Source: Streptomyces sp. NBC_01723 (lineage in GTDB: Bacteria; Actinomycetota; Actinomycetes; Streptomycetales; Streptomycetaceae). Taken from it: a DNA stretch of 64,000 nt. The translations under genes and the position numbers were made by a program. Positions 4,547 through 22,275 of the stretch are shown here, piece by piece. The notes below the pieces were generated by a model. The model had not been told where the DNA came from, made no database searches, and saw only the letters and a list, made by a program, of their open reading frames with translations. The DNA is taken from contig NZ_CP109171.1 of assembly GCF_036246005.1 (NCBI RefSeq), positions 3,088,001-3,152,000 on the forward strand. The letters run 5' to 3'. How positions within the stretch are numbered: position 1 is the stretch's first letter; every line of letters starts with the position of its first letter.

Positions 4547-6811
4547 ATGGATGTTCCCGTGCCCAGGTTCAGTGTCATCGTGCCCGCGTACCAGGTCCAG
4601 GCCTATCTGCACGCGTGCCTGGAGTCGGTGCTGTGCCAGTCGTACCAGGACTTCGAGGTGATCGTCGTCGACGACCGGTCGCCGGACGCGTGCGGTGCGA
4701 TCGCCGACGAGTTCGCGGACCGCGACGCGCGCGTACGCGCCGTGCACCTGCCTCAGAACCAGGGCCTCGGCCCCGCCCGCAACGTCGGCATCGAGCGGGC
4801 GGGCGGCGACTACCTGGTCTTCCTCGACGGCGACGACACCCTCGCCCCGGGCGCGCTCCGGGCCCTCGCCGACCGCGTGAAGGAGACCGGCGACCCGGAC
4901 GTACTGGTCTACGACTACGCCCGGACGTACTGGACCGGCGAGACCGTCCGCAGCCAGGCGGCCGCGCACCTCACCGAGCAGGGACCGGCGCCGTTCCGGC
5001 TGGCCGACCGGCCGGGGCTGCTGCGGCTGCTGATGGTGGCCTGGAACAAGACGGTGCGGCGGGAGTTCGCCGAGCGCGAGGGCCTCACCTTCCCGCCCGG
5101 CTACTACGAGGACACCCCGTGGACGTACCCGGTCCTCCTGACCGCGGAGTCCGTCGCCACCCTGGACCGGGTCTGCGTCCACTACCGGCAGCGCCGCCGG
5201 GGCAGCATCCTGGGCACGCCGAGCGAACGCCACCTGGACGTCTTCACGCAGTACGACCGGGTCTTCGCGTTCCTCGAGTCGCATCCGGAGCACGACCGCT
5301 GGCGGCCGGTGCTGTACCGCCGCATGTGCGACCACCTGGCGACCGTGTTCACCCGCCCCGACCGCCTCCCGCGTTCCCAGCGCGCCGAGTTCCTGCGCCG
5401 GGCGCGGGTCCACTGCCGCCGCTACCGGGTCGCCGGTGCCCCCGCCCCGGCGCCGGTCCGGGTGCGCCACGCCCTGCTCCGGCTGGGCCTGCGCCGTACC
5501 TGGGAGACCCTGCGGCTGGCGTCCGCACTGCGCCGACGGACGGCGAGGGCCGCCGCCGGCTGGCTGCGGGCCGCCCGGACCGGCACCCTGCGCCTGCACT
5601 ACCGGGGCCAGCGCCTCCTCCCGCTGAGGACCGACCGCGCCCTCTTCGCCGTCGACGGCGGCGGGGGGTACGGCTGCAACCCCGGGGCGCTGGAGGACGC
5701 GTTCCGCCGCTGCGCGCCGCATGTGCGCACGGCGTGGGCCGCCGCCCCCGCGCACCACCACACGGTCCCGCCCGCGACCCGGCGCCTCACTCCCGGCACG
5801 GCCGCCTACTGGACGGCCCTGGCCCGCTCCCGGTACCTGGTGCACAACTCCGCCTTCGACAGCGGCCTGGTCAAGCGCCGGGGCCAGGTACTGGTCCAGA
5901 CGCAGGCCGGGACGCCGCTCGCGCACGCGGGCCTGGACCTCCAGGAGCGGCCGGCCGCCGGGGGCGGCACCGACTTCGCCCGGTTGCTGCGCGAGGTCGA
6001 CTCCTGGGACTACGTGGTCTCCGCCAACCGCCACTCCACCCTCACCTGGGAACGCGTCCACCCCGGCGGCTACACCACCCTGGAGTACGGCCAGCCCCGC
6101 ACCGACGCCCTCCAGCGGGCGACCGCCGCGGACGTGGCCCGGCTCCGCGAGACCCTCGGCATCCCCGAGGGCACGGTGGCGATCCTGTACGCGCCCGCGC
6201 ACCGCGACTACCGGCGCACCCAGCGCTCCGCCCTGGACCTGGAGCGCGTCGTACGCCGCCTCGGCCCCCGCTTCATGGTGCTGGCCCGCGCCCACCCGGG
6301 CCACGACGTCCGGCCGGCCGCGTCCGTCGGCCGGGTCCTGGACGTGAGCGGTCACCCATGCGTGGAGTCGCTCTGCCTGGCCTCGGACGCCCTCGTCACC
6401 GACTACGCGTCCCTGATGTTCGACTACGCGGGCCTGGACCGGCCGATCGTGCTCCACGCCGACGAGCCGGAGGCGTTCGAGGCGGCCCGCGGCACCTACG
6501 TCGACCTGCGCTCCGTCCCGCCGGGGCCGATCGCGCGGGACGAGGACGAGCTGATCGCCGTCTTCGCCGGCGGCGACTGGTACGGCGCCCGGTCCACCCG
6601 GCTGCGGGCCGAGTTCCGCGAGCGGTTCTGCCCGTTCGACGACGGCCACGCCGCCGAGCGCGTGGTGCGCCGGGTGGTGCTCGGCCAGACCCGGCTGCCT
6701 CCGGTGGTGCCACCCGGCGCCCGCCGTCCGCCCGCGGCGGCGGTCGCCCGCACCCCGCTGGCCACGGTCCCGCAACCGGCCGGGCCGCGCACCGTCACCG
6801 ACAGCCTCTGA
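4547..6811 (+). CDS. GT2 glycosyltransferase / TagF-like fusion, paralogue A (GT2 intact, TagF motif lost)
   Basis: A 754-residue two-domain cytoplasmic protein, probably membrane-associated. The N-terminal GT2 domain (about 1-280) keeps every hallmark: VVDDRSPD (Asp42-Asp43), FLDGDD (94-97) and the base motif YYEDTPW (Glu188-Asp189). A basic, helical linker follows. The C-terminal half (about 365-715) is a CDP-glycerol glycerophosphotransferase-like domain with RAH (His583) and TDYASLMFDYA. The expected HGTPLK motif reads AGTPLA, so both the first catalytic His (position 454) and the Lys are gone. ATG 4547 has no clear ribosome-binding site. GTG 4559 would give MPRFS, exactly like paralogues B and C, and may be the true start. 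First gene of a tandem trio; probably acts in surface polymer synthesis. Confidence 0.85.
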   Translation: MDVPVPRFSVIVPAYQVQAYLHACLESVLCQSYQDFEVIVVDDRSPDACGAIADEFADRDARVRAVHLPQNQGLGPARNVGIERAGGDYLVFLDGDDTLAPGALRALADRVKETGDPDVLVYDYARTYWTGETVRSQAAAHLTEQGPAPFRLADRPGLLRLLMVAWNKTVRREFAEREGLTFPPGYYEDTPWTYPVLLTAESVATLDRVCVHYRQRRRGSILGTPSERHLDVFTQYDRVFAFLESHPEHDRWRPVLYRRMCDHLATVFTRPDRLPRSQRAEFLRRARVHCRRYRVAGAPAPAPVRVRHALLRLGLRRTWETLRLASALRRRTARAAAGWLRAARTGTLRLHYRGQRLLPLRTDRALFAVDGGGGYGCNPGALEDAFRRCAPHVRTAWAAAPAHHHTVPPATRRLTPGTAAYWTALARSRYLVHNSAFDSGLVKRRGQVLVQTQAGTPLAHAGLDLQERPAAGGGTDFARLLREVDSWDYVVSANRHSTLTWERVHPGGYTTLEYGQPRTDALQRATAADVARLRETLGIPEGTVAILYAPAHRDYRRTQRSALDLERVVRRLGPRFMVLARAHPGHDVRPAASVGRVLDVSGHPCVESLCLASDALVTDYASLMFDYAGLDRPIVLHADEPEAFEAARGTYVDLRSVPPGPIARDEDELIAVFAGGDWYGARSTRLRAEFRERFCPFDDGHAAERVVRRVVLGQTRLPPVVPPGARRPPAAAVARTPLATVPQPAGPRTVTDSL

Positions 6812-6895
6812 GCGCCGTTTGTCCCTCGGGAGCCCCGGGTGTCGCGGCCGGCGCAGGGCTCCCGCCCGGACCAGCACATCGAGAGAAAGAGCAGC

Positions 6896-9100
6896 ATGCC
6901 CCGCTTCAGCATCATCGTCCCGTCCCATGGGGTCGCGGGGCGGCTCTCCCAGGCACTGGACTCGGTGCTCGACCAGTCCTTCGGCGACTTCGAGCTGATC
7001 CCGGTCTGCGACGCCCCGGACACCGCCGCGGCGGACGTCGCCGAGGAGCACTCCGGACGGGACTCGCGGGTCACGCCCGTGCACGCCCCGCCGTCGGCCG
7101 GGCTGGCCGGGGCGCGCAACGCCGGGATGCGGGCGGCGACCGGCGCGTACCTGCTGTTCCTCGACGGCGACGACGTCCTCGTGCCGGGCGCGCTGGCGGC
7201 GCTGGAGGCGCGGCTGGCGGACACCGGGGGCGTCGACGTGCTGTACTTCGAGTACGAGCGGGTGCCCTGGTGGGAGGGCGAGGCCACCAACCCGGCCGCC
7301 CCGCTGCTGGCGAGGACCCCCGACGGCGCCTTCACCCCCGACCGCGCCCCCGATCTGACCGGCGTGCGGCTGCCCGCGTGGAGCGCCGTCCACCGCCGCA
7401 CCTTCCTCACCGAGCGCCGGCTCGCCTTCCCCGACGGGCACTTCACGGACATCGGTTTCGGCGCCCTGGTCGCGGCGCGCGCCGAGCGCGTGGCGGTGCT
7501 GCGCTCGGTGGTCGTCCGGCATCTGGTGCGGCGCCAGGGCAACCGGCTGAACCTGCCCGGCGTGCACCACGGTGACCTCCTCGACCAGGCCGAACTGGCG
7601 CTCGCGCACGCCGCCGAGCGGGGACTGCCGGACGCGCGCCGCGGGCCGCTCTTCGAGCACCTGTTCGCCGCGATCCTGAAGACGGCGACACATCCGCGGC
7701 GGCTGACGAGCCGGCAGCGCCGGGTCTTCTTCCGGCGCGCGAGCCGCCTCTACCGCCGCCACCGCCCCGCCGGCTTCCGCCCGCCGGGCGGCCGGCTCGG
7801 CGTCCAGCACCGGCTGCTCGCGGCGGGGTCGTACGCCGGCTTCCGCGCCCTGCGCGCCACCAACCGGGCACTCACCGGGGCGCTGCGCCGCCTGCCGTGG
7901 CCGCGGGGGCTGCGCACCCGGCTGCTGTACCGCCGCCACCTGCGCCGCCCGCTGGATCCGAACCTCGTCGTGTACTGCGCCTACTGGGGCCGCGGCTACG
8001 CGTGCAGCCCGGCCGCGATCCACGCCAAGGCCCGCGAACTCGCCCCGCACCTCAGGTCGGTGTTCCTGGTCGAGGCGGACCAGGCGCACACCGTGCCGGA
8101 GGGCGTCGACCACGCGGTCATCGGCGGCCGGCGGTACTGGGAGGTGCTGGCCCGCGCCAAGTACCTGGTGAACAACGCCAACTTCGCGGAGGGCGTGGTC
8201 AAGCGCCCCGGCAGCGTGCACGTGCAGACGCAGCACGGGACCCCGCTGAAGACGATGGGCGTGGACCAGTCGACGTACCCGGTGGTGGCCGCGGCCAGCG
8301 GCAGCTTCACCAGGCTGCTGGGCCGCGTGGACCGCTGGGACTACAACGTCTCCGCCAACCGGCACTCCACCCAGGTGTGGGAGCGCGCCTTCCCGGGCTC
8401 GTACGAGCACCTGGAGTACGGCTATCCGCGCAACGACGTCTACTGCACGGCGACCGCCGAGGACGTGGCCCGCGTCCGCCGCGAGCTGGGCGTCCCGGAA
8501 GGGGCGACGGCGGTCCTCTACGCGCCCACGCACCGGGACTACGAGAGCGGCTTCGGCGCGGGCGCCCTGGACCTGGAGGCGTTCTGCGAGGCGGCCGGCG
8601 AGGGCGTGGTGGTGCTGCTGCGCGCCCACTACTTCTACGACCGGGGCGGCCGCGCGGGCAGCGGCCGGATCATCGACGTCACCGCGCACCGCTCCTCGGA
8701 GGACGTGTGCCTGGCCGCGGACGCGCTGGTCACCGACTACTCGTCGATCATGTTCGACTACGCCAACCTGGACCGGCCGATCGTCGTGTACGCCGACGAC
8801 TGGGACGTCTACCGGGAGACCCGGGGCGTCTACTTCGACCTGATGGCGGCGCCGCCCGGACCGGTGGCGCGGACGCCGGAGGAGTTGGCCCGCGTCTTCG
8901 GCGACGGCTCGTACGCGGGCCCGGAGTCGGCGGCGCTGCGGGCGGCCTTCCGGGAGCGGTTCTGCGAGTTCGACGACGGCCGGGCCGCCGAGCGGGTCGT
9001 GCGCCGGGTGCTGCTCGGCGAGCCGCCCGAGGCGCTGCCGCCCGTGATCCCGCTCGCGGAGCGCGTCCCGGCCCCCGCCGCCACCCTCGTAAGGAGCTGA
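6896..9100 (+). CDS. GT2 / TagF-like fusion, paralogue B (TagF motifs intact, GT2 base lost)
   Basis: A 734-residue relative of A. ATG 6896 follows a purine-rich site (gagagaaaga) and gives MPRFSIIVPS; the frame is open further upstream, but those residues do not match the paralogues. In the GT2 part FLDGDD (89-93) remains, but the first motif is VCDAPDTA instead of DDxSxD. The catalytic-base motif reads FTDIGF (Asp185 without the preceding Glu) where A and C have YEDTPW. The C-terminal domain is complete: QHGTPLK with His447, RAH with His578, and TDYSSIMFDYANLDRPIV. In B. subtilis TagF the two equivalent histidines are essential. It probably transfers a polyol-phosphate (or other CDP-linked) unit, while its GT2 part may be structural. 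Confidence 0.85.
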   Translation: MPRFSIIVPSHGVAGRLSQALDSVLDQSFGDFELIPVCDAPDTAAADVAEEHSGRDSRVTPVHAPPSAGLAGARNAGMRAATGAYLLFLDGDDVLVPGALAALEARLADTGGVDVLYFEYERVPWWEGEATNPAAPLLARTPDGAFTPDRAPDLTGVRLPAWSAVHRRTFLTERRLAFPDGHFTDIGFGALVAARAERVAVLRSVVVRHLVRRQGNRLNLPGVHHGDLLDQAELALAHAAERGLPDARRGPLFEHLFAAILKTATHPRRLTSRQRRVFFRRASRLYRRHRPAGFRPPGGRLGVQHRLLAAGSYAGFRALRATNRALTGALRRLPWPRGLRTRLLYRRHLRRPLDPNLVVYCAYWGRGYACSPAAIHAKARELAPHLRSVFLVEADQAHTVPEGVDHAVIGGRRYWEVLARAKYLVNNANFAEGVVKRPGSVHVQTQHGTPLKTMGVDQSTYPVVAAASGSFTRLLGRVDRWDYNVSANRHSTQVWERAFPGSYEHLEYGYPRNDVYCTATAEDVARVRRELGVPEGATAVLYAPTHRDYESGFGAGALDLEAFCEAAGEGVVVLLRAHYFYDRGGRAGSGRIIDVTAHRSSEDVCLAADALVTDYSSIMFDYANLDRPIVVYADDWDVYRETRGVYFDLMAAPPGPVARTPEELARVFGDGSYAGPESAALRAAFRERFCEFDDGRAAERVVRRVLLGEPPEALPPVIPLAERVPAPAATLVRS

Positions 9101-9107
9101 CCCCGCC

Positions 9108-11342
9108 GTGCCCCGCTTCAGCGTCATCCTTCCCTGTTTCAAGGTGCAGGGCTTCCTGCGCGAGTGCCTCGACTCGGTCCTGGACCAGTCCTTCCGGGAC
9201 ATCGAGGTCATCGCCGTCGACGACTGCTCGCCCGACGGCTCGGGCGCGATCCTGGACGAGTACGCCGCCCGCGACGACCGGCTGCGCGTGCTGCACCTGG
9301 AGGAGAACGTCGGCCTCGGCCGGGCCCGCAACGCCGGGCTGCCGCTCGCCACCGGCGACTACCTCTTCTTCCTCGACAGCGACGACACCCTCACCCCGGG
9401 CGCGCTGCGCGCCATGGCCGACCGGCTCGCGGAGACGGCCGACCCCGAGGTTCTGGTCTTCGACTACGCGCGCACCTACTGGTGGGGCGGCACCCGGCGC
9501 AACGCCCTGGCCCGGGTGCTGGCCGAGGCCGGGGAGGACACGTTCACGGCCGCCGGTCACCCCGAGATCCTCGACCTGCTGATGGTGGTGTGGAACAAGG
9601 TCTACCGGCGCGACTTCGTCGAGCGCGAGGGCTTCACCTTCCCGCCCGGCTACTACGAGGACACGCCCTGGACGTTCCCGGTGATGTTCAGCGCGGAGCG
9701 GATCGCCACGCTGGACCGCATCTGCCTGAACTACCGGCAGCGGCGGCAGGGCAACATCCTGTCCACCACCAGCCGCAAGCACTTCGACGTGCACGCGCAG
9801 TACGAGCGGGTCTTCGCCTTCCTGGACGCCCGACCGGAACTGGCCCGCTGGCGGCCGTTCCTGCACGCCAAGATGGGCGAGCACTGCCTGGACATCCTGT
9901 CCAAGCCGGACCGGCTGCCGCCCTCCGACAAGGCCGAGTTCTTCCGGCGCACCGCCGAGATGTTCCGCGCGTACCGGCCCGAGGGCGCCGAGGTCCCGGC
10001 CGAGCTGCGGGTGCTGGCGGGCGGCGCGCTCGGCTACCCGGCCTACCGGCTGCGGCGGCGGTCCGGGCAGGCGGCCCGGGAGCTGGAGCGCCGGGCTCGG
10101 CAGGCGGGGGGCGCGGTCGCCGGACGGCTGCGCGGGGCCGGCAGCGCGGTGCGCACGCGACGCCCGCTGGACCCTGACCTGGCGGTGTACTCGGCGTTCT
10201 CGCACCGGGGCGTGCTGGGCGACCCCGCGGCGATCCACCGCGAGGCGCGCGAACTCGCCCCGCACGTGCGCGGGGTGTGGGTGGTGCGCGACGAGGAGAC
10301 GGCGGCGCTGCTGCCGCCGGACACCGAGCACGTGGTCCTGGGCAGCGCCGGCTACCGGCGGGTGACCGAGCGGGCGACGTTCTTCGTCAACAACGTCAAC
10401 TGGCCCGGTGCCGTGACCAAGCGCCCGGGCAGCGTCCACATCCACACCCACCAGGGCACCCCGCTGAAGTACATGGGCGTCGACCTGCTGGGCCGGCCGG
10501 GCGCCCGGCACGGCCTGGACGTGCCGCAGATGCTGCGCCGGGCCGACCGCTGGGACTACAGCCTGGTCGCCGGCCGGTACGCGGAGCGGGTGTGGGAGCG
10601 GGCGTACCCGTGCCACTTCACGTCCGTGCCCAGCGGCAGCCCGCGCAACGACGTGCTGGTGAACGCGGGTCCGGACGACGGCCGCCGGGTGCGTGAGCGG
10701 CTGGGCGTCCCGGACGGCCACACCGTGGTGCTCTACGCGCCGACCCGGCGCGAGTACCGCCGGGGCGGGCTCGTCGACCGCCTCGACCCGGCCCGGCTCG
10801 CCGCGGACCTCGGCGAGGGCCACACCCTGGTGGTCCGGCTGCACCCGTCGCTGGCCACCGGACCGGCCCGCGGCATGGGCCTGTCGGAGCTGCACCGGCG
10901 GGGCGTCCTGGTCGACGCGACGGACGAACCGCACGTGGAGGAGCTGATGCTCGCCTCCGACCTGCTGATCACCGACTACTCCGCCCTGCTGTTCGACTAC
11001 GCCCTGCTGGACCGGCCGATCGTGATCCACGCCGACGACTGGCGCGCGTACGAGGCGAGCCGCGGCGCCTACTTCGACATCACCGAGGAGGCACCCGGGC
11101 ACGTGTCGCGCTCGTACCGGGAGCTGGCCTGGCTGCTGGCGTCCGGGGCGTGGCGGGACGAGGAGGCGGCGCGGCTGCGGTCGGCGTTCCGGGCCCGGTA
11201 CTGCGAGTACGAGGACGGCCGGGCCGCCGAGCGGGTGGTGCGGACGCTGCTGCTGGGCGAGCCGATGCCCGGCCCGGAGCCGTCCGGCGTCCCCGGCGCC
11301 CGTTCGGTCGCCGCCGGACACGACCTGCTCGCCTCCTCGTGA
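9108..11342 (+). CDS. GT2 / TagF-like fusion, paralogue C (GT2 intact, TagF His replaced by Gln)
   Basis: A 744-residue third member of the trio. GTG 9108 follows the ribosome-binding site aaggag at 9091-9096 and gives MPRFSVILPC. The GT2 domain has VDDCSPD (Asp38-Asp39), FLDSDD (88-93) and YYEDTPW (Glu184-Asp185), so it looks active. In the C-terminal domain HGTPLK is changed to QGTPLK (Gln449, with His448 just before it). The second motif is RLH (His579), and TDYSALLFDYALLDRPIV is kept. The GT2 part is closest by eye to paralogue A (both have a WNK motif, YEDTPW and YRQRR). The stop overlaps the start of the following membrane protein gene (GTGA), so the two are probably co-translated. Confidence 0.85.
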   Translation: MPRFSVILPCFKVQGFLRECLDSVLDQSFRDIEVIAVDDCSPDGSGAILDEYAARDDRLRVLHLEENVGLGRARNAGLPLATGDYLFFLDSDDTLTPGALRAMADRLAETADPEVLVFDYARTYWWGGTRRNALARVLAEAGEDTFTAAGHPEILDLLMVVWNKVYRRDFVEREGFTFPPGYYEDTPWTFPVMFSAERIATLDRICLNYRQRRQGNILSTTSRKHFDVHAQYERVFAFLDARPELARWRPFLHAKMGEHCLDILSKPDRLPPSDKAEFFRRTAEMFRAYRPEGAEVPAELRVLAGGALGYPAYRLRRRSGQAARELERRARQAGGAVAGRLRGAGSAVRTRRPLDPDLAVYSAFSHRGVLGDPAAIHREARELAPHVRGVWVVRDEETAALLPPDTEHVVLGSAGYRRVTERATFFVNNVNWPGAVTKRPGSVHIHTHQGTPLKYMGVDLLGRPGARHGLDVPQMLRRADRWDYSLVAGRYAERVWERAYPCHFTSVPSGSPRNDVLVNAGPDDGRRVRERLGVPDGHTVVLYAPTRREYRRGGLVDRLDPARLAADLGEGHTLVVRLHPSLATGPARGMGLSELHRRGVLVDATDEPHVEELMLASDLLITDYSALLFDYALLDRPIVIHADDWRAYEASRGAYFDITEEAPGHVSRSYRELAWLLASGAWRDEEAARLRSAFRARYCEYEDGRAAERVVRTLLLGEPMPGPEPSGVPGARSVAAGHDLLASS

Positions 11343-12616
11343 GACCGCGGCTGTGGGTGCTGGTCCTGGCCGCCGTGTTCGCCGCGCTGCAACTGGCGAA
11401 CATCACCGGCCGGGACACCCCCGACACCAAGAACTACCTGGCGTACGCGCTGAGTCTCAGCGGTGAGGGCAAGCGCGGGGTGGCGACGGCCACGATCGAC
11501 TACGTGTGCGCGAGCCGGGCCGAGCGGGCCCGCCGGGACCAGAGCGTGCACGTGGTCCGACTCCACCGGCCCGACCCCGCCGACCAGGTGGCGGCCGAGT
11601 GCCGCGAGCAGGAGTGGGGGGTGGTGGAGCCGCAGCTGGCGGCGGGCCGGACCGGCGGGCACACCCTGCCGTACATGCCGGACCGCTTCATGCGGATCTT
11701 CGAGGTGCGGCCCGGCTACCCGCTGTTCCTGGTGCCGTTCGTGGCGGTCCTCGGGGTGACCTGGGGCCTGTGGGCGGCGGGCGTCGTCATCGCGTGCGCG
11801 GGCGGGGTACTGGCCTTCCTGATCCTGCGCGCGCTGTCGGTGCCGGTGCCGCTCGCGCTGGGCGGGCAGGCGCTGTACTACGCGCTGCCGTGCGGGACGA
11901 CCGCGATGCGCCCGATGACCGAGGGGCTGCTGATGGCGCTGACCCTGGCGGCGGTCTGGGGCTGTGCGCTGATGCTGCGGGCGGGACGGACGCGGGCGGG
12001 GCTCGCCCTGGTGGCCGGGTCGCTGGCGGCGCTGTTCACGGTCAAGCACTCCCAGTCGCTGTTCCTCGGGCTGTGCCTGGCGGCGGCGGGCGCGCTGATC
12101 GCGTTGCGCCGCCGACGGGGCGGCCGGTCGCCCCGGGACGTGCTCGCGCTCGCGGCGGTGGGGCTGGCCGGGGCCGTCGGCACGCTGGTGCTGGCGCGGC
12201 TGCTGCACTATCCGTCGGTGTCGGACAGCGTCCAGGATCTGCTCACCGACCACTTCGCGCGGCCCGACCGGGAGCGTCCGTGGCCGGAGTTCTGGCAGCT
12301 GCAGGGCAACTTCTGGGTGGAGTGGCTGCGACGGCAGGCGTGGCAGCCGCTGTTCGTCGCGGCGCTGGCCGCCGGGGCGTGGGGCGCGCTGCGGCGCGGG
12401 GGCGCGGTCGGCGGGTTCCTGGTCGCGGCAGCGTGCACCGGGATCCTCACCCAGGCCGGGCATCCGGACATCAACATCTGGGGCGAGCGGCTGATCGTGC
12501 TGGCCTGGCTGCTGCCCGTGGTGGGCATCCCACTGCTGCTGGAGCCCGTGGTGCGGGGTGGCAGGGTGCCGCTGCCCGCGCAGGGGGCGGCCGACCCGGT
12601 CCGGGCGGTCGGCTGA
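11339..12616 (+). CDS. Polytopic membrane protein, GT-C-like, coupled to paralogue C
   Basis: A 425-residue protein starting at GTG 11339, overlapping the upstream stop by 4 nt. One helix at 5-22 is followed by GRDTPDTKNYL, then an extracytoplasmic loop of about 80 residues with two cysteines (DYVCAS and AAECRE). About seven more hydrophobic segments follow. An acidic motif after the first helix and a large first outer loop are typical of GT-C glycosyltransferases that use lipid-linked sugars, but no family signature is certain. Its coupling to a GT2-TagF fusion suggests a role in building or decorating the same polymer. The C-terminal tail is short and cytoplasmic. Confidence 0.7.
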   Translation: MRPRLWVLVLAAVFAALQLANITGRDTPDTKNYLAYALSLSGEGKRGVATATIDYVCASRAERARRDQSVHVVRLHRPDPADQVAAECREQEWGVVEPQLAAGRTGGHTLPYMPDRFMRIFEVRPGYPLFLVPFVAVLGVTWGLWAAGVVIACAGGVLAFLILRALSVPVPLALGGQALYYALPCGTTAMRPMTEGLLMALTLAAVWGCALMLRAGRTRAGLALVAGSLAALFTVKHSQSLFLGLCLAAAGALIALRRRRGGRSPRDVLALAAVGLAGAVGTLVLARLLHYPSVSDSVQDLLTDHFARPDRERPWPEFWQLQGNFWVEWLRRQAWQPLFVAALAAGAWGALRRGGAVGGFLVAAACTGILTQAGHPDINIWGERLIVLAWLLPVVGIPLLLEPVVRGGRVPLPAQGAADPVRAVG

Positions 12617-12708
12617 GCGTCACCCGTTGAGGTGACTTGGGTTCAGGGCGGCGACCCCGCCGGGAACATACGCCCAATGTCCCGAATGTCCCACCCTCTG
12701 ATCCCTTC

Positions 12709-14262: not shown

Positions 14263-14281
14263 GCGGCCCCCGCCGGCCGGA

Positions 14282-14695
14282 CTACTCGATGACCAGCTCG
14301 ACCGGGATGTTGCCCCGGGTGGCGTTGGAGTAGGGGCACACCTGGTGGGCCTGCTCGACGAGCTTGCGGCCGGTCTCCTGGTCGAGGCCCTCGGGCAGCT
14401 CGACCCGCAGCGTGACGGCGAGCGCGAAGCCCTCACCCTGCTTGCCGATACCGACCTCGGCGGTCACGGCGGCCTCGCTGACGTCGACCTTCGCCCGTCG
14501 GCCGACGACGCCCAGGGCACTGCCGAAGCAGGCGGCGTACCCGGCGGCGAACAGCTGCTCGGGGTTGGTGCCCTTGCCGTCGCCGCCCATCTCGACGGGG
14601 GCGCCGAGCGCGAGGTCGAGCTTGCCGTCGGAGCTGACGGCGCGGCCCTCGCGGCCGTGGGTGGCGGTGGCGGCGGCGGTGTAGAGCGCGTCCAT
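14282..14695 (-). CDS. ohrA: Organic hydroperoxide resistance protein, OsmC/Ohr family
   Basis: A 137-residue thiol peroxidase that reduces organic hydroperoxides in the cytoplasm using lipoyl-type reductants. Both redox cysteines are present: Cys56 (AACFGSA) and Cys120 (VCPYSNATR). Arg18 and Glu47 (NPEQLFAAGY) match the active-site Arg and Glu of Ohr enzymes. Length and ending (NIPVELVIE) are normal. The ATG at 14693-14695 has a gaggga-like ribosome-binding site upstream. It is divergent from a MarR-type gene with a redox Cys, the classical ohrA/ohrR arrangement, with operator sequences between them. Confidence 0.95.
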   Translation of the reverse strand: MDALYTAAATATHGREGRAVSSDGKLDLALGAPVEMGGDGKGTNPEQLFAAGYAACFGSALGVVGRRAKVDVSEAAVTAEVGIGKQGEGFALAVTLRVELPEGLDQETGRKLVEQAHQVCPYSNATRGNIPVELVIE

Positions 14696-14762
14696 GGGAA
14701 ACCCGTCCCTCTCAGTGGGGTGCGTCGCACGTGGCGACCTCTGACGCCGACAAGTAGAGCAC

Positions 14763-14803
14763 GCAACTTGAATGCGCGCAACTAAATTGCGCGCAACTTA
14801 ATG
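14763..14803. promoter_or_regulatory. OhrR-type operator between ohrA and ohrR
   Basis: A perfect inverted repeat at 14774-14794 (gcgcgcaa, 5-nt spacer, ttgcgcgc). The motif gcaact recurs three times about 15 bp apart (14763, 14779, 14793), suggesting cooperative binding of more than one dimer. A possible -10 (tactct, 14817-14822) lies next to the regulator start. Placement between divergent ohrA and ohrR genes supports the assignment. Confidence 0.75.
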
Positions 14804-14829
14804 ACGTCCGGTCGGCTACTCTGGGGGGC

Positions 14830-15300
14830 ATGACCACGCCCGCGACCGACTGGCTCCGCCTGGACCAGCAGATCTGCTTCTCCCTGAACGCCGCGTCCCG
14901 CGCCTTCGGTGGCGTCTACCGCGTGGTCCTCAAGGACCTGGGCCTCACCTACCCGCAGTACCTGGTGCTGCTGGTGCTGTGGGAGCACGGCGAACTCCCC
15001 GTGAAGAGGCTCGGCGAGCACCTCCGCCTCGACTCCGGCACGCTCTCGCCGCTGCTCAAGCGGCTGGAGGCGGCCGGTCTGGTCCGGCGGGAGCGCAGCG
15101 CGCGCGACGAGCGGTCGGTGGAGGTGCGGCTGACCGGGGAGGGCGTCGCGCTGCGCGAGCGGGCCGCCGAGGTGCCGCGCCGGATCGCCGCGGCGACGGG
15201 GCTGGACGTGACCGAGGTCCAGGACCTGCGCGACCGTCTCGACCGGCTCACCTCCGCCCTGGACGCGTACGGCACCGATCCGGCCCCGGCGCCGTCCTGA
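14830..15300 (+). CDS. ohrR: MarR-family organic peroxide sensor OhrR
   Basis: A 156-residue winged-helix repressor. The peroxide-sensing Cys is at residue 16 (QQICFSLN), the position used by OhrR proteins. The tyrosine-containing helix [14 protein letters not shown] and the MarR DNA-binding part ([42 protein letters not shown]) follow. The ATG at 14830 has a G-rich site (ggggggc) immediately upstream. It is expected to repress ohrA and itself until the Cys is oxidised. Regulation is suggested by the inverted repeat in the 134-nt divergent intergenic region. Confidence 0.92.
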
Positions 15301-15392
15301 GGGGTGCGGGCGCCCGCGGGTCCCCGATGACGGATCATGTCCACACAGGACCACTGTCCACCCAGGACCACTCACGAAGGGGACGGCCGCAC

Positions 15393-16373
15393 ATGACCTG
15401 GCTGATCACCGGCGGCGCCGGATACATCGGGGCGCACGTCGTACGGGCGATGACCGAGGCGGGCGAGAAGGCGGTGGTGTACGACGACCTGTCCACCGGC
15501 ATCGCCGACCGCGTGCCCGACGGCGTCCCGCTGGTGGTGGGCTCGGTCCTGGACGGCGAACGGATCGCCCGCGCCCTCGCCGACCACTCCGTCACCGGCG
15601 TCGTGCACCTGGCCGCGAAGAAGCAGGTCGGCGAGTCGGTGGACCTGCCGCTGCACTACTACCGGGAGAACGTCGAGGGCCTGCGCGTCCTGCTGGACGC
15701 GGTCACGGCGGCCGAGGTCCCGTCCTTCGTCTTCTCCTCCTCCGCCGCCGTGTACGGCATGCCGGACGTCGACCTGGTGACGGAGGAGACGCCGTGCGCG
15801 CCCATGTCGCCGTACGGCGAGACCAAGCTGGCCGGCGAGTGGCTGGTCCGCGCCACCGGCAAGGCGACGGGCCTGGCCACCGCCTCCCTCCGCTACTTCA
15901 ACGTCGCGGGCGCGGCGAGCCCCGAGCTGGCCGACACCGGTGTCTACAACCTCGTCCCGATGGTCTTCGAGAAGCTGACCGAGGGCGCCGCCCCGCGCGT
16001 CTTCGGCGACGACTACGCGACGCCGGACGGCACCTGCGTCCGCGACTACATCCACGTCGTCGACCTGGCCGAGGCCCACGTCGCCGCGGCCCGCGCCCTC
16101 CAGTCCTCGCCGGGCCGCACCCTCACCCTCAACATCGGCCGGGGCGAGGGCGTCTCCGTCCGCGAGATGATCGACCACATCAACGCCCTCACCGGCTACG
16201 ACCACCCTCCGACGGTCACCCCCCGCCGCCCCGGCGACCCGGCCCGCGTCGTCGCCTCGGCCGACCGCGCCGCCGTCGAACTGGACTGGAAGGCCAAGTA
16301 CGACGTCGAGGAAATGATCACGTCGGCGTGGTCGGGCTGGGTACGGCTGCATCCGGAGGCGGCGCGGGACTAG
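15393..16373 (+). CDS. galE: UDP-glucose 4-epimerase (GalE-type extended SDR)
   Basis: A 326-residue NAD-dependent nucleotide-sugar epimerase. The N-terminal Rossmann motif GGAGYIGAH (7-15), the Ser-rich strand FSSSAAVYG (Ser117 region) and the catalytic pair Tyr141/Lys145 (YGETK) are all present. The later ALTGYDHPPTVTPRRPGDPARVVASADRA stretch is typical of GalE. The start is ATG 15393, with aaggggac upstream; the open frame continues upstream but overlaps ohrR. No galT or galK is adjacent, so this is an orphan epimerase that may supply UDP-galactose for the neighbouring glycopolymer genes rather than for catabolism. Related UDP-sugar epimerase activities cannot be excluded. Confidence 0.9.
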   Translation: MTWLITGGAGYIGAHVVRAMTEAGEKAVVYDDLSTGIADRVPDGVPLVVGSVLDGERIARALADHSVTGVVHLAAKKQVGESVDLPLHYYRENVEGLRVLLDAVTAAEVPSFVFSSSAAVYGMPDVDLVTEETPCAPMSPYGETKLAGEWLVRATGKATGLATASLRYFNVAGAASPELADTGVYNLVPMVFEKLTEGAAPRVFGDDYATPDGTCVRDYIHVVDLAEAHVAAARALQSSPGRTLTLNIGRGEGVSVREMIDHINALTGYDHPPTVTPRRPGDPARVVASADRAAVELDWKAKYDVEEMITSAWSGWVRLHPEAARD

Positions 16374-16394
16374 GAGACGCACGGGGGGCCAGTC

Positions 16395-16919
16395 ATGACC
16401 GCGTACGACCTGCTGCTCATCGGCGGTGGCTCCGGCGTCGGCAAGAGCACCGTCGGGTGGGAGATGTCCGCGCTGCTGCGAGAGGCCGCGACCGCGCACT
16501 GTCTGATCGAGGGGGACGGCATGGACCAGATCCATCCCGCCCCCGAAGGGGACCCGCACCGCACGGCGGTCACGGAGCGGAACATCGCGGCGGTGTGGGC
16601 GAACTACGCGGCGCTCGGACAGCGCCGGCTGATCTACACCAACACCGTGAGCATCCTCGAGGCGCCGATGATCGGGCGGGCCATGGGCGGGGGCGAGGTG
16701 CGGGTGACCCACGTGCTGCTGACCGCCGGCGAAGCCACCGTGCGGCGGCGGCTCGCCCTGCGGGAGACCGGTTCGCAGCTCGGCGTCCACATCGAGCGGA
16801 GCCTGCGTATGGCCCGGCGGCTGTCCGACGAGGCTCCCGCCGGGACGGTCAGGGTGGCTACGGACGGCCGGACGGTGCCGGACGTCGCGGCCGAGGTGCT
16901 CCGGGCCGCCGCCTGGTGA
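16395..16919 (+). CDS. P-loop kinase-like ATP-binding protein
   Basis: A 174-residue protein with a Walker A motif near the N-terminus (GGGSGVGKST, about 10-19). The length and fold resemble small-molecule kinases of the gluconokinase/shikimate kinase type: DGMDQIHP after the second strand, an arginine-rich lid-like segment (RRRLALRE) and a C-terminal region with VRVATDGRTVPDVAAEVL. No substrate-specific motif is recognised. It follows the epimerase after 21 nt on the same strand and ends 10 nt before a convergent gene, so it is probably co-transcribed with galE. Confidence 0.75.
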   Translation: MTAYDLLLIGGGSGVGKSTVGWEMSALLREAATAHCLIEGDGMDQIHPAPEGDPHRTAVTERNIAAVWANYAALGQRRLIYTNTVSILEAPMIGRAMGGGEVRVTHVLLTAGEATVRRRLALRETGSQLGVHIERSLRMARRLSDEAPAGTVRVATDGRTVPDVAAEVLRAAAW

Positions 16920-16929
16920 ATGCGGCGGG

Positions 16930-17313
16930 TCACAGGGGCTGGACGAATTCCGCCCGCCACTGGGGGGACGGGTCCGAGCCCAGCTCCGTCCAGTACTCCC
17001 GGCCGCCGGTGATCCGGCCGTCGCGGACCGTCCAGAGCGACACGACCCGGTGGACGCCCATCGTGTCGTGCGGGACCTCCACCTCGGAGACGACGGTCTC
17101 GCCGCCCCCGTCCGCCACGACGCGCATGACGTGGATGGACCAGCCCTCCGGGTACTCCGCGTTGACGGCCACGAAGTCCGCGCGGCCCACGATGCGCTCG
17201 GCGCTGACCGGCCACTCCACTACCAGGTCGTCGGCCAGCAGGGCGCCGAGACCCACCCAGTCACGGGCCTGCATGCGCGCCCAGAACTCCTGCACGACCG
17301 CCATAGGTTCCAT
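16930..17313 (-). CDS. SnoaL/NTF2-like protein
   Basis: A 127-residue single-domain protein with the cone-shaped NTF2-like pattern: an N-terminal helix (MAVVQEFWARMQARDWVGLGALLADDLVVEWP), then alternating strands ending in VVSLWTVRDGRITGGREYWTE. Members include polyketide cyclases and many ketosteroid isomerase-like proteins of unknown function. The visible motifs resemble the nuclear transport factor 2 domain proteins common in actinobacteria. The substrate is unknown. It is convergent with the kinase-like gene and in the same direction as the TetR gene upstream of it. Confidence 0.75.
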   Translation of the reverse strand: MEPMAVVQEFWARMQARDWVGLGALLADDLVVEWPVSAERIVGRADFVAVNAEYPEGWSIHVMRVVADGGGETVVSEVEVPHDTMGVHRVVSLWTVRDGRITGGREYWTELGSDPSPQWRAEFVQPL

Positions 17314-17365
17314 ACCCGCATCCTCGCAAGCACCACTGACAGTGCGGTGATGCCGCGACCCCGCC

Positions 17366-17998
17366 TCAGAGCGCCCGCAGCCCCGCCGCCGTGGCCCGGG
17401 CCAGCGCGGCCAGGTGGCCCTTCGGCAGCTTCGGGCTGCGGATGACCACCGAGCGCCAGTACAGCGGGCCCGAGATCAGGTCGAGGGCCAGGTCGGTGTC
17501 GAGACCGGCGGCCAGCTCACCGCGTTCCGTCGCCGCCGCGAGGATCTTGCTGGCGACGCCGTCCTGACCCTCCCGCAGGGTCTTCCGCAGCACCTCGGCG
17601 ATCTCGGGATTGCGGGCCGCCTCCGCCTGGAGGTCGGGGATGATCTGCGAGGCCACCGGGTGGCGCAGGGCACGGGACGTCACCTCGTACAGGAGCCGCA
17701 GGTCACCCTCCAGCGAACCCGTGTCGGGCGCGGGCAGGCCCTGCACGGCCAGCGCCGAGACGACGTCGAGCACCAGGTGCAGCTTGGAGCGCCAGCGCCG
17801 GTAGACGGCGGTCTTGCCCACCCCCGCGCGGCGCGCGATCCCCTCGATGGACATCCGCGCGTAGCCGACCGCCGCGAGCTCCTCGAAGACCGCCGCCCGG
17901 ATCGCCTCCGTCACGTCCTCGCGGAGCACGGCCGCCCCGGCGGGGGCCCGGCGGCGGCGCGGGCGCGGCTGGGGCTCGTCGGCGGCGTCGGTCGTCAT
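17366..17998 (-). CDS. TetR-family transcriptional regulator
   Basis: A 210-residue regulator. The N-terminal helix-turn-helix (AVFEELAAVGYARMSIEGIARRAGVGKTAVYRRWRSK, about 37-73) is a clear TetR signature. The rest is a helical ligand domain with a C-terminal part resembling TetR_C regulators (LDLISGPLYWRSVV). ATG 17998 is preferred over ATG 18010, which would add only MLSR. The gene is divergent from the TagGH-type exporter genes with 96 nt between starts. A partly symmetric sequence lies in that interval, so the exporter is a plausible target. Confidence 0.9.
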   Translation of the reverse strand: MTTDAADEPQPRPRRRRAPAGAAVLREDVTEAIRAAVFEELAAVGYARMSIEGIARRAGVGKTAVYRRWRSKLHLVLDVVSALAVQGLPAPDTGSLEGDLRLLYEVTSRALRHPVASQIIPDLQAEAARNPEIAEVLRKTLREGQDGVASKILAAATERGELAAGLDTDLALDLISGPLYWRSVVIRSPKLPKGHLAALARATAAGLRAL

Positions 17999-18019
17999 GC
18001 GGGACAGCATAGGGCGTAG

Positions 18020-18043
18020 CGACGAAACGGTTGCGTTCCGACG
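18020..18043. promoter_or_regulatory. Candidate TetR operator between the regulator and the exporter operon
   Basis: A 24-bp imperfect palindrome with arms cgacgaaacg and cgttccgacg (8 of 10 positions symmetric) and a 4-bp centre (gttg). It lies 22 bp upstream of the TetR start and 52 bp upstream of the permease start. A second ccgt...acgg pair follows near 18062-18078. Inference only. Confidence 0.4.
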
Positions 18044-18094
18044 TCAGCACGCCGTACGCTCCCGTTACGACGATACGGTCCCGTCCCGACGTGA

Positions 18095-19090
18095 ATGAAC
18101 GCCTCCCGACACCCGGGTGAACGACGGGAATCGCTTCCACCCCCCGAGCGAAAGCAGCGCGGAGTGAGCCAGGTCCTCGACACACCGCCCCCGACAGCGG
18201 CCCCGCCCGCCCCCGCCGACCACGACCTCGGGGCCCTCGCCGCCCGGCACGGTCTGACGGTCAGCGGCGCCCGTCCCTCCCTGCCCGAGTACGTCCGCCA
18301 GCTGTGGGCCCGCCGGCACTTCATCGGCGCCTTCTCCACCGCCAAGCTCACCGCCCAGTACAGCCAGGCCAAGCTGGGCCAGGTCTGGCAGGTGATGACG
18401 CCGCTGCTCAACGCGGCGGTGTACTACTTCATCTTCGGCATGCTGATGAACACCAGCCGCGGGGTGGAGGACTTCGTCCCGTTCCTGGTCACCGGCGTGT
18501 TCGTGTGGACCTTCACCCAGAGTTCGATCATGGCGGGCACCCGGGCCATATCCGGCAACCTCGGCCTCGTCCGCGCCCTGCACTTCCCGCGGGCCGCGCT
18601 GCCGGTCTCCTTCTGCCTCCAGCAGCTCCAGCAGCTGATGTTCTCGATGGGCGCCCTCGTGGTGATCCTGCTCGCGTTCGGCGTCCCGCCCGGCCCCTCC
18701 TGGCTGCTGGCGATCCCGGCGCTGGTGCTCCAGTTCGTGTTCAACGCGGGCGTGGCGCTGGTCATGGCCCGGGTGGGCTCCAAGATCCCGGACATGGCCC
18801 AGCTGATGCCCTTCCTGCTGCGCACCTGGATGTACGCCTCGGGCGTCATGTTCAGCATCCACCACATGACCGGCCCCGACAGCGACCTGCCGTCCTGGGT
18901 CGGCCCGCTGCTCCAGGTCAACCCGGCCGTCGTCTACATCGACCTGATGCGGTTCGCCCTGATCGACAGCTTCGGCGGGGACATGCTGCCGAACCACGTG
19001 TGGGCGATGGCCCTGGGCTGGGCCCTGGTCGCCGGGATCGGCGGCTTCATCTACTTCTGGAAGGCCGAGGAGACCTACGGTCGTGGCTGA
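18095..19090 (+). CDS. ABC-2 type polysaccharide export permease (TagG/Wzm-like)
   Basis: A 331-residue membrane component of an exporter for lipid-linked surface polymers. A proline-rich cytoplasmic N-terminus (about 60 residues) is followed by the hallmark AKLTAQYSQAKLGQVWQVMTPLLNAAVYYFIFGML of the TagG/KpsM family. Further helices cover 135-155, 175-200, 205-230, 240-260 and 300-325. ATG 18095 has no obvious ribosome-binding site, and GTG 18164 (giving MSQVLDTPPP) is an alternative start. The stop overlaps the start of the ATPase gene by 8 nt. Together they would flip wall teichoic acid-type or similar polymers to the outside. Confidence 0.88.
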   Translation: MNASRHPGERRESLPPPERKQRGVSQVLDTPPPTAAPPAPADHDLGALAARHGLTVSGARPSLPEYVRQLWARRHFIGAFSTAKLTAQYSQAKLGQVWQVMTPLLNAAVYYFIFGMLMNTSRGVEDFVPFLVTGVFVWTFTQSSIMAGTRAISGNLGLVRALHFPRAALPVSFCLQQLQQLMFSMGALVVILLAFGVPPGPSWLLAIPALVLQFVFNAGVALVMARVGSKIPDMAQLMPFLLRTWMYASGVMFSIHHMTGPDSDLPSWVGPLLQVNPAVVYIDLMRFALIDSFGGDMLPNHVWAMALGWALVAGIGGFIYFWKAEETYGRG

Positions 19091-19934
19091 CAACACCCCT
19101 GCCGAGCGCGTTCCCACCGTCGTCGTCGACGGCGTCGACATCGTCTACCGGGTCAACGGCACCGGGGCGGGCCGCGGCTCCGCGACCGCCGCCCTCAACC
19201 GCATCCTGCGCCGCAAGAAGAGCGAGAAGGCCTCGGGCGTGCGCCGGGTGCACGCGGTGAAGAAGGTGTCCTTCGTGGCGTACCGGGGCGAGGCGATCGG
19301 CCTGATCGGCACCAACGGCTCCGGCAAGTCGACGCTGCTCAAGGCGGTCGCCGGGCTGCTCCCGGTGGAGAACGGCCGCATCTACACCGACGGCCAGCCC
19401 TCGCTGCTCGGCGTGAACGCCGCCCTGATGAACGACCTCACCGGCGAGCGCAACGTGTACCTCGGCGGCCTGGCGATGGGCATGTCCCGCGCGCAGATCA
19501 AGGAGCGCTACCAGGACATCGTCGACTTCTCCGGGATCAACGACAAGGGCGACTTCATCACCCTGCCGATGCGCACGTACTCCTCCGGGATGTCCGCCCG
19601 CCTGCGCTTCTCCATCGCCGCGGCCAAGGACCACGACGTCCTGCTGGTCGACGAGGCCCTGGCCACCGGCGACCGCTCCTTCCAGAAGCGTTCCGAGGAG
19701 CGCATCCGGGAGCTGCGCAAGCACGCCGGCACGGTCTTCCTGGTCAGCCACAGCAACAAGTCCATCCGCGACACCTGCGACCGGGTGCTGTGGCTGGAGC
19801 GCGGCGAGCTGCGGATGGACGGGCCCACGGAGGAGGTCCTGAAGGAGTACGAGAAGTTCACCGGCGGCCCGGACAAGGCGGCGAAGCCGAAGGCCGCACC
19901 CAAGGCAGCGCCCAAGACGAAGGTCCCCGCCTGA
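19083..19934 (+). CDS. ABC transporter ATP-binding protein (TagH/Wzt-like)
   Basis: A 283-residue ATPase partner of the upstream permease, starting at GTG 19083 within its 3' end. It has Walker A GTNGSGKST (76-84), ABC signature YSSGMSARLRFS (166-177), Walker B VLLVDEALATGD (186-197) and the switch His223. The ten residues after DGVDIVYRV form a typical polysaccharide-exporter N-terminal strand. The C-terminus is a short Lys/Ala-rich tail (KAAPKAAPKTKVPA) with no extra carbohydrate-binding domain like that of B. subtilis TagH or E. coli Wzt. The next gene, the TagF-like fusion D, starts 124 nt downstream with its own aaggag site. Confidence 0.92.
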   Translation: MADNTPAERVPTVVVDGVDIVYRVNGTGAGRGSATAALNRILRRKKSEKASGVRRVHAVKKVSFVAYRGEAIGLIGTNGSGKSTLLKAVAGLLPVENGRIYTDGQPSLLGVNAALMNDLTGERNVYLGGLAMGMSRAQIKERYQDIVDFSGINDKGDFITLPMRTYSSGMSARLRFSIAAAKDHDVLLVDEALATGDRSFQKRSEERIRELRKHAGTVFLVSHSNKSIRDTCDRVLWLERGELRMDGPTEEVLKEYEKFTGGPDKAAKPKAAPKAAPKTKVPA

Positions 19935-20058
19935 CGGCGCCCTTCCCCCGTGAGGCGTACTCTCGATTAACCCTTTTGCCTGTTTGATGCCACCATGTCC
20001 GAATAGACGCGACCCCAAGGAGTGCGCAGGGAGCGACCGAGGCTAAGGAGCCCCAGCG

Positions 20059-22275
20059 ATGCCCGAGACCCCCGACCTCAGCGTCGTCGTCCACGGCCCC
20101 AACGTCCAGGACCACCTGCCCGCACTCCTCGACTCCCTGGCCGCCCACCCCCTCACCGGCGTCGAAGTGATCGTCGCCGCCGTCGGGGACTGGGCCAGGG
20201 AGACGGCCGAGGGCCACACCCCCGCGTTCACCGTGCTCCCCCTCCCCGACGGCGCCCGCGACTCCGCGGCCCGCGCGGCGGGGGCGGCGCGGGCGCAGGG
20301 CCGGTGGCTGCACTTCGTCCACGCCAAGGACGGGCTGCCCCCCGGCGCACCGCGCACCGTCGCCCAGCACGCCGCGGACCTCCCCGACACGGTGGACGTC
20401 CTGCTGTTCGACCACGTCCGCAGCACCTGGCGGGCCTCCGGTCTGCCCTCCCCCGACGGCCCCCGCCTCGCCCGCGCCGGACACGCCGACCTCGCCCTGG
20501 ACGACCGCGCGGCGCTGCTCGGGCTGACCCCGCTGCTCGGAAACCGCGCCGTGCGCGCCGGCTTCTGGCGGGCGCACGAGCGCCTCCTCACCACCGACGA
20601 CGAGCCGTTCGCCGCCCTCGTCGCCCTGCTGCTCGCCGACCGCGTCGCCTGCCTGCCCCAGCCGGCGTTCGAGGACCGCCGGCTGCGCGCCGAGAGCCTC
20701 CCACCGGTCACGCCGGAGCAGCGGTACGCCCTGGTCGACCGCTACGAGACGCTGCTCGGCCTCGCCGCCGACCGCCCGGCCGTCCGCGGCACCCTGTACG
20801 ACCTGATGGTCCGCGACTGCCTGCGCACCTTCGCCCGCGCCGGAATGCCGGACGACGTGGCGCGGGAGTTCTTCCGCCGGGCGTCGTCGGCCGCCCGGCG
20901 CCTGCGCCCCGACGGCCACCGGAGCCCGTCCGGGCTCGAAGGCGTACGCCGGTCGCTGCTGATCGACGGCGCGTACACGAAGTACCGCGCCCTCCAGGCC
21001 GCCAACCACACGCGCCGCAGGGTGCGGTCGGCGGTGCGCACCGGCGGGCGCCTGGCCGGCGACCGGGTGCGCTCCCTCCAGTACCGCAGGGCACTGGCCC
21101 GCCCGATCGACCCGCACCTCGCCGTCTTCTCGGCCTACTGGGCCCGCGGCGTGGCCTGCAACCCGGCCGCGATAGCCGCCGAGCTGGCCGAACTCGCCCC
21201 GAACGTCCACCCGGTGTGGGTGGTCACGGCGGCGAACGCGGCGCTGCTGCCGCCCGGCACCGACCACGTCGTCCCCGGCACCCGCCGCTACTGGGAGGTG
21301 CTGGCCCGCGCCAAGTACCTCGTCAACAACGTCAACTTCCCGGACTCGGTGGTCAAACGCCCCGGCACCGTCCACCTCCAGACCCACCACGGCACCCCGC
21401 TCAAGCGCATGGGCCTGGACCAGATGCCGTACCCCGCCGCCGCCCGGGGCCTGGACTTCCCGGCGCTGCTGGAGCGCGTCGACCGGTGGGACTACAGCGT
21501 CTCCGCCAACGGCCACACGACCCGCATGTGGCAACGGGCCTACCCGTCCCGCCACGTCTCCCTCGACCACGGCTATCCGCGCAACGACGTCTACTACACG
21601 GCCGGCGCCGCCGAGGTCCGCGCGGTCCGCGAGCGCCTGGGCATCCCGCCCGGCCGCAGGGCGATCCTCTACGCGCCCACCCACCGCGACTACGAGGCGG
21701 GCTGGACCCCGCGCCTCGACCTCGCGGCACTGGCGGCCGACCTCGGCGAGGAAACGGTCCTGCTGGTCCGCGCCCACTACTTCTACGAGGGCGCGTCCAC
21801 CCCGTCCGCCCCGCTGGCCGGCCTGCGCCGCACCGGCCGCCTCATCGACGTCTCCTCCTACGAACCCGTCGAGGAACTGTGCCTGGCCGCCGACGCGCTG
21901 GTCACGGACTACTCGTCGATCATGTTCGACTACGCCAACCTGGACCGCCCGATCGTCATCCACGCCGACGACTGGGAGACGTACCGCACCACCCGCGGCG
22001 TCTACTTCGACCTGATGGCCGAGGCACCCGGCCCGGTCGCCCGCGGCCAGGCCGAACTGACGGAGATCCTCACCACCGACGCCTGGCACGACGAGCGCGC
22101 GGCCAAGGCACGGACCGCCTTCCGGCGCCGGTTCTGCGAGTACGACGACGGCCGCGCCGCCGAACGCGTCGTCCGCCGGGTCTTCCTCGGCCAGGACGAA
22201 CGCACGCTGCCCCCGGTCCTGCCGATCGAGGAGCGCACCCCGGCGCCGAGCCCCGAGGAGGCCAACGCGTCATGA
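20059..22275 (+). CDS. TagF-like glycerophosphotransferase with degenerate GT2 domain, paralogue D
   Basis: A 738-residue relative of A-C, with ATG 20059 after a strong aaggag site. The N-terminal part aligns with the GT2 fold by length and order, but the motifs are gone: where DDxS is expected there is AAVGDW, FLDGDD reads FVHAKD (86-91), and the YED base motif is absent. The C-terminal CDP-glycerol glycerophosphotransferase-like domain is complete: HHGTPLK with His444, RAH with His573, TDYSSIMFDYANLDRPIV. It follows the TagGH-type exporter and overlaps the following GT2 gene by 4 nt. A TagF homologue of S. coelicolor (SCO2997) linked to sporulation-associated wall polymer is, as I remember, in this context. 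Confidence 0.87.
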   Translation: MPETPDLSVVVHGPNVQDHLPALLDSLAAHPLTGVEVIVAAVGDWARETAEGHTPAFTVLPLPDGARDSAARAAGAARAQGRWLHFVHAKDGLPPGAPRTVAQHAADLPDTVDVLLFDHVRSTWRASGLPSPDGPRLARAGHADLALDDRAALLGLTPLLGNRAVRAGFWRAHERLLTTDDEPFAALVALLLADRVACLPQPAFEDRRLRAESLPPVTPEQRYALVDRYETLLGLAADRPAVRGTLYDLMVRDCLRTFARAGMPDDVAREFFRRASSAARRLRPDGHRSPSGLEGVRRSLLIDGAYTKYRALQAANHTRRRVRSAVRTGGRLAGDRVRSLQYRRALARPIDPHLAVFSAYWARGVACNPAAIAAELAELAPNVHPVWVVTAANAALLPPGTDHVVPGTRRYWEVLARAKYLVNNVNFPDSVVKRPGTVHLQTHHGTPLKRMGLDQMPYPAAARGLDFPALLERVDRWDYSVSANGHTTRMWQRAYPSRHVSLDHGYPRNDVYYTAGAAEVRAVRERLGIPPGRRAILYAPTHRDYEAGWTPRLDLAALAADLGEETVLLVRAHYFYEGASTPSAPLAGLRRTGRLIDVSSYEPVEELCLAADALVTDYSSIMFDYANLDRPIVIHADDWETYRTTRGVYFDLMAEAPGPVARGQAELTEILTTDAWHDERAAKARTAFRRRFCEYDDGRAAERVVRRVFLGQDERTLPPVLPIEERTPAPSPEEANAS

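Follow-up and report, generated by a model that had tools for sequence, protein, structure and literature searches.

The 64,000-nucleotide stretch of DNA analysed here (the window) comes from a genome whose close relatives are Streptomyces, and it carries a probable wall-polymer locus. Three adjacent open frames on the forward strand, A (4547..6811), B (6896..9100, with an alternative GTG start at 6839) and C (9108..11342), each encode a GT2–TagF fusion matching both PF00535 and PF04464. Downstream on the same strand lies D (20059..22275), an open frame found in some genomes only, whose product has intact TagF motifs, a GT2 region without the DxD motif, and PF04464 as its sole Pfam match. All four products score above the PF04464 cut-off (366–450 bits), and they account for four of the seven PF04464 genes in the 8.85-Mb genome. 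Among the neighbouring genes are a galE-type UDP-glucose 4-epimerase (14979..16373, forward; TIGR01179, 329.6 bits against a cut-off of 262.3, with homology from about residue 139), a TetR-family regulator (17366..18010, reverse), an ABC-2 permease that is TagG-like by neighbourhood (18095..19090, forward; PF01061, NCBIfam matches below cut-off) and a TagH-like ABC ATPase (19083..19934, forward; PF00005, best NCBIfam match TagH at 178 bits, below the cut-off of 320). D is followed by E (22272..24014, forward), a stand-alone GT2 protein with FLDSDD and YEDQLF motifs whose ATG start overlaps the stop codon of D (ATGA), and then by an NAD-glutamate dehydrogenase gene (25777..30792, reverse). The best PDB sequence match of E is 6h1j (86 bits), the wall teichoic acid glycosyltransferase TarP; E itself is a neighbour of D and does not belong to the fusions. 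In S. roseosporus, the available text of one study describes TagR as a regulator of the wall teichoic acid (WTA) exporter (PMC10269677).

None of the four fusion-type proteins carries both catalytic motif sets in one chain, and an intact bifunctional paralogue (L002) is encoded elsewhere in the same genome. The motifs read FLDGDD, YYEDTPW, QAGTPLA (5903..5923, forward) and RAHPGH in A; FLDGDD, HFTDIG (7439..7456, forward), QHGTPLK and RAHYFY in B; FLDSDD, YYEDTPW, HQGTPLK (10449..10469, forward) and RLHPSL in C; and FVHAKD (20314..20331, forward, at the former DxD), HHGTPLK and RAHYFY in D. Alignment to the solved TagF of S. epidermidis (3l7i, from which chains 3l7j and 3l7m depart at both histidines) places an Ala of A and a Gln of C on the first catalytic histidine (H1), while the second (H2) is kept in both; A additionally has Ala at the motif Lys. 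Both histidines, H444 and H584 in S. epidermidis TagF, are present in B and D. The first-pass annotation had proposed that A and C retain the GT2 motifs but are missing the first histidine of TagF, that B and D keep both histidines, and that D has lost its GT2 motifs; the motif readings and the alignment to a solved structure bear out the first two points, and the third agrees with the absence of DxD from D and its presence in A, B and C. The further proposal that B has lost its GT2 base motif holds in part, in that the Glu of YED is gone (FTD) but the Asp of this ED motif, usually taken as the GT2 base, is retained in B as it is in A and C. In D the ED-motif region is shortened and its alignment varies between runs. 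The D N-terminus nevertheless aligns with the GT2 domains of A and C over 271–278 columns at a probability of 99.3–99.4%, against 0.3% for a TagF control, and some D orthologues bear a precomputed PF00535 call.

We placed 278 TagF-domain proteins from the window and related loci on a FastTree phylogeny of the TagF domain, which gave an A clade of 81 rows (L035, an intact basal relative, and 80 others), a B clade of 67 (62 plus five intact bifunctional relatives), 62 C rows, 22 D rows and 46 others; nine partial TagF matches, including pieces in L076, L101 and L102, were dropped before counting. The GT2 part could not be aligned in three A rows (L037, L040 and L041), and in the 78 assessable rows DxD is invariant and the ED-motif Glu is lost once (L019). 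H1, by contrast, is kept in only 22 of 80 A orthologues (L035 set aside) and is otherwise E, Q, A, R, P, T, G or D. B orthologues keep each TagF histidine in 61 of 62 rows, the GT2 DxD in 59 and the ED-motif Asp in 60, and all 62 lack the GT2-conserved residues Asn71, Lys168, Glu188 and Tyr213 (A numbering). The sole B exception, L033, has Pro at both TagF histidines, and there A has both histidines and no D was found in the genome. The H1 position of C is occupied by Q (51), R (7), L (3) or H (1), with H2 and the ED motif present in 62/62. D has both histidines in all 22 rows and the first Asp of DxD in none. The best 120 database matches for each protein gave Q in 119 and L in one at H1 of C, His-Lys-His in 120/120 for D, and H1 in 22/120 for A, although these sets are not independent because they hold many near-identical strains and overlap in part with our loci.

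The motif losses are orthologue-specific across Streptomyces, more so than expected by chance. Random loss of either motif set, the pattern that would have argued against a split of activities, was not seen for B, C, D or the GT2 domain of A; loss in the TagF domain of A is scattered among relatives, yet associated with D. Nine intact bifunctional relatives, including L002, occur in the sample. In subsample trees A, B and D mostly form separate groups with bifunctional copies between them, although one B stands apart, C is split in the GT2 tree, and the deep branches are weakly supported. Nineteen loci of the S. griseus group (among L021–L047) present a distinct arrangement, in which both TagF histidines of A are replaced, the first by Glu or Arg and the second by Pro, and B, C and D are absent from the locus; 16 of the 19 carry two WHG-type TagF genes on the opposite strand, the other three loci being short. 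Some A orthologues (P0265, P0311, P0353 and P0356) are named CRISPR system Cascade subunit CasB in their source, apparently a naming error.

A His directly precedes the Gln of C, and the first-pass annotation had cautioned that a register shift might preserve activity. The same His occurs before the H1 position in 62/62 C, 22/22 D and seven of nine intact bifunctional relatives; as it is common to D and most intact relatives, such a shift is unlikely. The residue before H1 is Gln in 57/62 B and in 20/22 A proteins that keep H1; among 43 other TagF proteins, 42 have Trp there.

We sought D in 72 whole genomes, calling it at 57% identity or more and leaving weaker matches in G067 and G125 (47–48%) uncounted. 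Eleven genomes were not entered in the resulting table of 61: in five A is missing or broken (L076, L077, L081, L101 and L102), and six have no A row. A has lost H1 in 33 genomes with D and seven without, and is intact in five with D and 16 without (p=1.3e-5); for 55 loci with A, B and C the corresponding counts are 31, 5, 4 and 15 (p=3e-6), and requiring the motif Lys as well gives p values between 3e-6 and 8e-8. Because these genome counts ignore kinship, we turned to tree-aware Mk models fitted to a tree of B and C with midpoint rooting, where letting the rate of A loss depend on D improved the fit (chi2 11.9, p=6e-4, 55 tips). Without two poor assemblies (L067 and L015) the improvement was chi2 13.4 (p=3e-4, 53 tips), in a run whose fuller dependent model reached a lower likelihood than a nested one, so that its optimisation had not converged; none of 120 simulations under independence reached 13.36. 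The idea arose from the A–B–C loci and its test drew largely on these genomes, and a search for fresh C-bearing genomes for replication returned only genomes already in the sample. Exceptions run in both directions. H1 is kept beside D in L053, L072, L078, L108 and, without the motif Lys, L095; it is lost without D in L013, L014 and L107, in L015 and L067, where D may be missing from the assembly, and in two loci of the S. griseus group with other TagF genes, L022 and L043. As to the genomes outside the table, A was not found in L077, L081 and L102, where B and C are present and no D was found in the genome; A of L101 is without internal parts, and in L076 the match to A does not begin until residue 325. 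L077 and L081 also show Gly in place of the GT2 Asp of B, and Leu at the H1 position of C. That loss in the TagF domain of A accompanies the presence of D is the new and testable part of these observations.

The reading we find probable is that the two reactions of a bifunctional polymerase have been divided among paralogues, with D relieving A and C complementing B. The sequences themselves supply the motif states, their orthologue specificity, the A–D association, the uneven erosion described below and the locus anatomy. That loss of a motif means loss of activity, that the proteins would act in trans on the same polymer, and what the dead domains would do are points we infer.

We identified 109 TagF positions conserved in intact copies, 55 of which are also conserved in outside TagF proteins (B numbering). 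Over these 55, the mean fraction kept is 1.00 in A with H1, 0.89 in A without H1 and 0.89 in C. The erosion of A without H1 is uneven, lowest at H447 (0), K452 (0.22), N427 (0.34), T545 (0.40), S616 (0.40) and H578 (0.45), then at A623 (0.64), N513 (0.69) and S617 (0.71), with many other positions at 1.00. Donor-site residues are named for Cps3D and TagF in the available text of one source (PMC11666461); judged by motif, their counterparts H447, H578, S616 and S617 erode in A without H1, and G448, R512, A543, R576 and D621 stay. The TagF site of A therefore appears damaged at its catalytic residues but not erased, given that several donor-site counterparts remain. The ratio of TagF to GT2 protein distance, 0.73 in intact bifunctional copies, moves as expected in A (0.85 with H1, 1.18 without) and in D (0.41), whereas the shift in B (0.61) is small and C (0.67) is neither accelerated nor displaced in the expected direction. 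Rough dN/dS values for the TagF domain, from the Nei-Gojobori method without codon-bias correction, have a median of 0.47 and a maximum of 0.82 in A without H1, and the maxima across five groups lie at 0.50–0.82.

A simple decay through redundancy, in which the TagF domain of A drifts away beside any other TagF without a shared polymer or any use for the dead domain, would account for the variety of letters at H1 of A, for the five sampled loci in which A is broken or absent, and for L022 and L043, where A lacks both histidines beside other TagF-type genes and no D. It sits poorly with the near-invariant GT2 motifs of A, with most deeply conserved TagF positions being close to invariant and rough dN/dS values below 1, and with the prevalence of Gln at H1 of C. 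We consider it rather unlikely.

The main TagF losses of C are H447 and S617 (Ala in 50/62), with the changes L574V and V595A, while H578, K452 and R576 are present in 62/62 and S616 in 61/62; the TagF domain of C may retain a function. This retention, the lack of acceleration and the invariant His before the H1 position are what would be expected if the site of C, and perhaps that of A, had been repurposed to catalyse or bind with another base or donor, a switch of specificity. The available text describes Cps7A, which belongs to the same Pfam family and has Tyr at the H1 position, as active in glycerol-phosphate transfer (PMC11666461); it fits such a switch, and with this example at hand loss of H1 is no proof of inactivity. 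A single conserved new base, however, would be an awkward description of a position held by Gln, Arg, Leu or His, the preceding His is shared with D and most intact relatives, and S617 is mostly Ala. On balance we think repurposing improbable. The GT2 domain of B, which keeps DxD and the Asp, appears altered and not clearly dead, and it may still work.

The order A–B–C on one strand holds in 56/56 loci with all three genes, and A and B are both lost in 0/56, which is weak evidence, B having been lost just once. D comes after tagH in the D-bearing loci that reach that far, and in D-less loci the gene after tagH is glutamate dehydrogenase. Fifteen D-less loci were compared, of which 12 have tagG and tagH, 12 the TetR gene and 10 galE. 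Nine show both tagH and the glutamate dehydrogenase gene, separated by a gap shorter than D in every case: 86–197 bases in L083, L101, L103, L105 and L106, 648 in L082, and about 1.8 kb in L077, L081 and L089. The fetched D-bearing loci all end short of glutamate dehydrogenase, which leaves the window as the one view of what lies to the right of D and E. E occurs in all three D-bearing loci that extend at least 1.1 kb past D (L084, at the edge, L090 and L100) and in 0/15 D-less loci, so D and E may travel together.

The first-pass annotation had inferred that activities were split between paralogues with both folds kept, and had pictured A–B and C–D partners. Orthologue-specific losses and the retention of both domains sustain the split, but since the TagF loss of A follows the presence of D, the pairs look like A with D, which is recurrent, and B with C, which is nearly fixed in the sample. 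That A–B and C–D heteromers use the dead domains for docking is very improbable, given that the state of A varies with D while B is almost constant and that D is often absent where C is present, whatever the constant A–B–C adjacency and the four chains in each solved TagF entry, which do not by themselves show an oligomer, might suggest.

Under the division of reactions among paralogues that we favour, the ancestors of A, B, C and D would have been bifunctional polymerases of the GT-A/TagF type, each chain adding both a sugar (GT2) and a phospho-unit (TagF), and duplication would have been followed by a division of the two reactions between copies. C would have become mainly a glycosyltransferase with a TagF domain lacking its base; B, its GT2 domain changed, would serve chiefly as a phosphotransferase. 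In genomes without D, A would have remained able to perform both reactions, as it retains both motif sets in most of those sampled. D, located after tagH with a presumably dead GT2 and an intact TagF domain, would take over the TagF reaction, so that A beside D, usually without its TagF catalytic residues, would act as a glycosyltransferase only. Purifying selection would continue to act on the dead domains, presumably since the architecture of the chain, membrane or oligomer needs them.

Precedent for such complementation comes from Cps1B, CslB and Cps12B, which likewise join a GT-A and a TagF-like domain in one chain and whose DxD and two histidines were tested by mutation, as the available text of Litschko et al. 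describes (PMC5974469). Single-domain mutants of Cps1B made no polymer, and mixtures of them regained wild-type activity (PMC5974469), which makes a division of labour in trans plausible. In those systems, so far as the accessible text describes them, both domains are active in one natural chain, whereas the apparent inactivations here are natural and spread over paralogues. S. epidermidis TagF (3l7i) is similar in that its TagF domain aligns over its full length, including both histidine positions, and its N-terminus gives a GT2-like score with A, B and C; it differs in having WHG where these proteins have QHG or HHG, and in using a CDP-glycerol donor, whereas no TagD was found in the present genome. 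In S. coelicolor, SCO2997 is reportedly linked to sporulation. Going by gene numbers alone, SCO2981, SCO2982, SCO2983 and SCO2997 probably correspond to A, B, C and D as orthologues; they have been named WTA glycosyltransferases, in a source whose available portion contained nothing on domain inactivation (PMC3937824). Our literature search, which was incomplete and does not prove novelty, turned up no account of these paralogues being inactivated domain by domain.

A search of the genome for a TagD-type cytidylyltransferase gave no TIGR01518 match and two PF01467 matches, and with no such enzyme found, the CDP-glycerol names of these TagF proteins appear doubtful. Three IspD-family matches were present, one strong, one read by eye as a GlmU-like protein, and a third whose long open frame, when tested, gave no Pfam match. 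The available text of PMC11666461 associates WHG with glycerol-phosphate polymerases and QHG with hexose-phosphate transferases, and does not mention HHG. The same genome, however, has two WHG-type TagF genes (L005 and L007), so this motif does not settle the donor. We considered a polydiglycosylphosphate as a possible product, given the presence of galE in the locus and the description of that polymer from S. coelicolor in the part of PMC7831098 available. It contains alpha-galactose, however, and beta linkages are what one would expect from inverting GT2 enzymes; the available text of PMC5974469 links GT-A to beta linkages.

A fuller version of the division between paralogues can be offered only tentatively. 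It would be a natural, repeatedly evolving split in which gain of D frees A from TagF catalysis and half-dead enzymes jointly make one wall polymer, possibly in mixed oligomers where the dead domains form a scaffold or relay substrates. This polymer might be of the sugar-phosphate kind, built from UDP-sugars and not from CDP-glycerol. If true, this would be a natural counterpart of the laboratory trans-complementation experiment, and the dependence of the TagF state of A on D would provide a testable rule for labour division in two-domain polymerases. The automatic name bifunctional glycosyltransferase/CDP-glycerol glycerophosphotransferase, carried by many of the matches, may mislead for many such proteins. 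Motif-based predictions could then be made of which Streptomyces gene serves which step of a wall-polymer pathway that published work connects with sporulation, resistance to stress and recognition by umbrella toxins.
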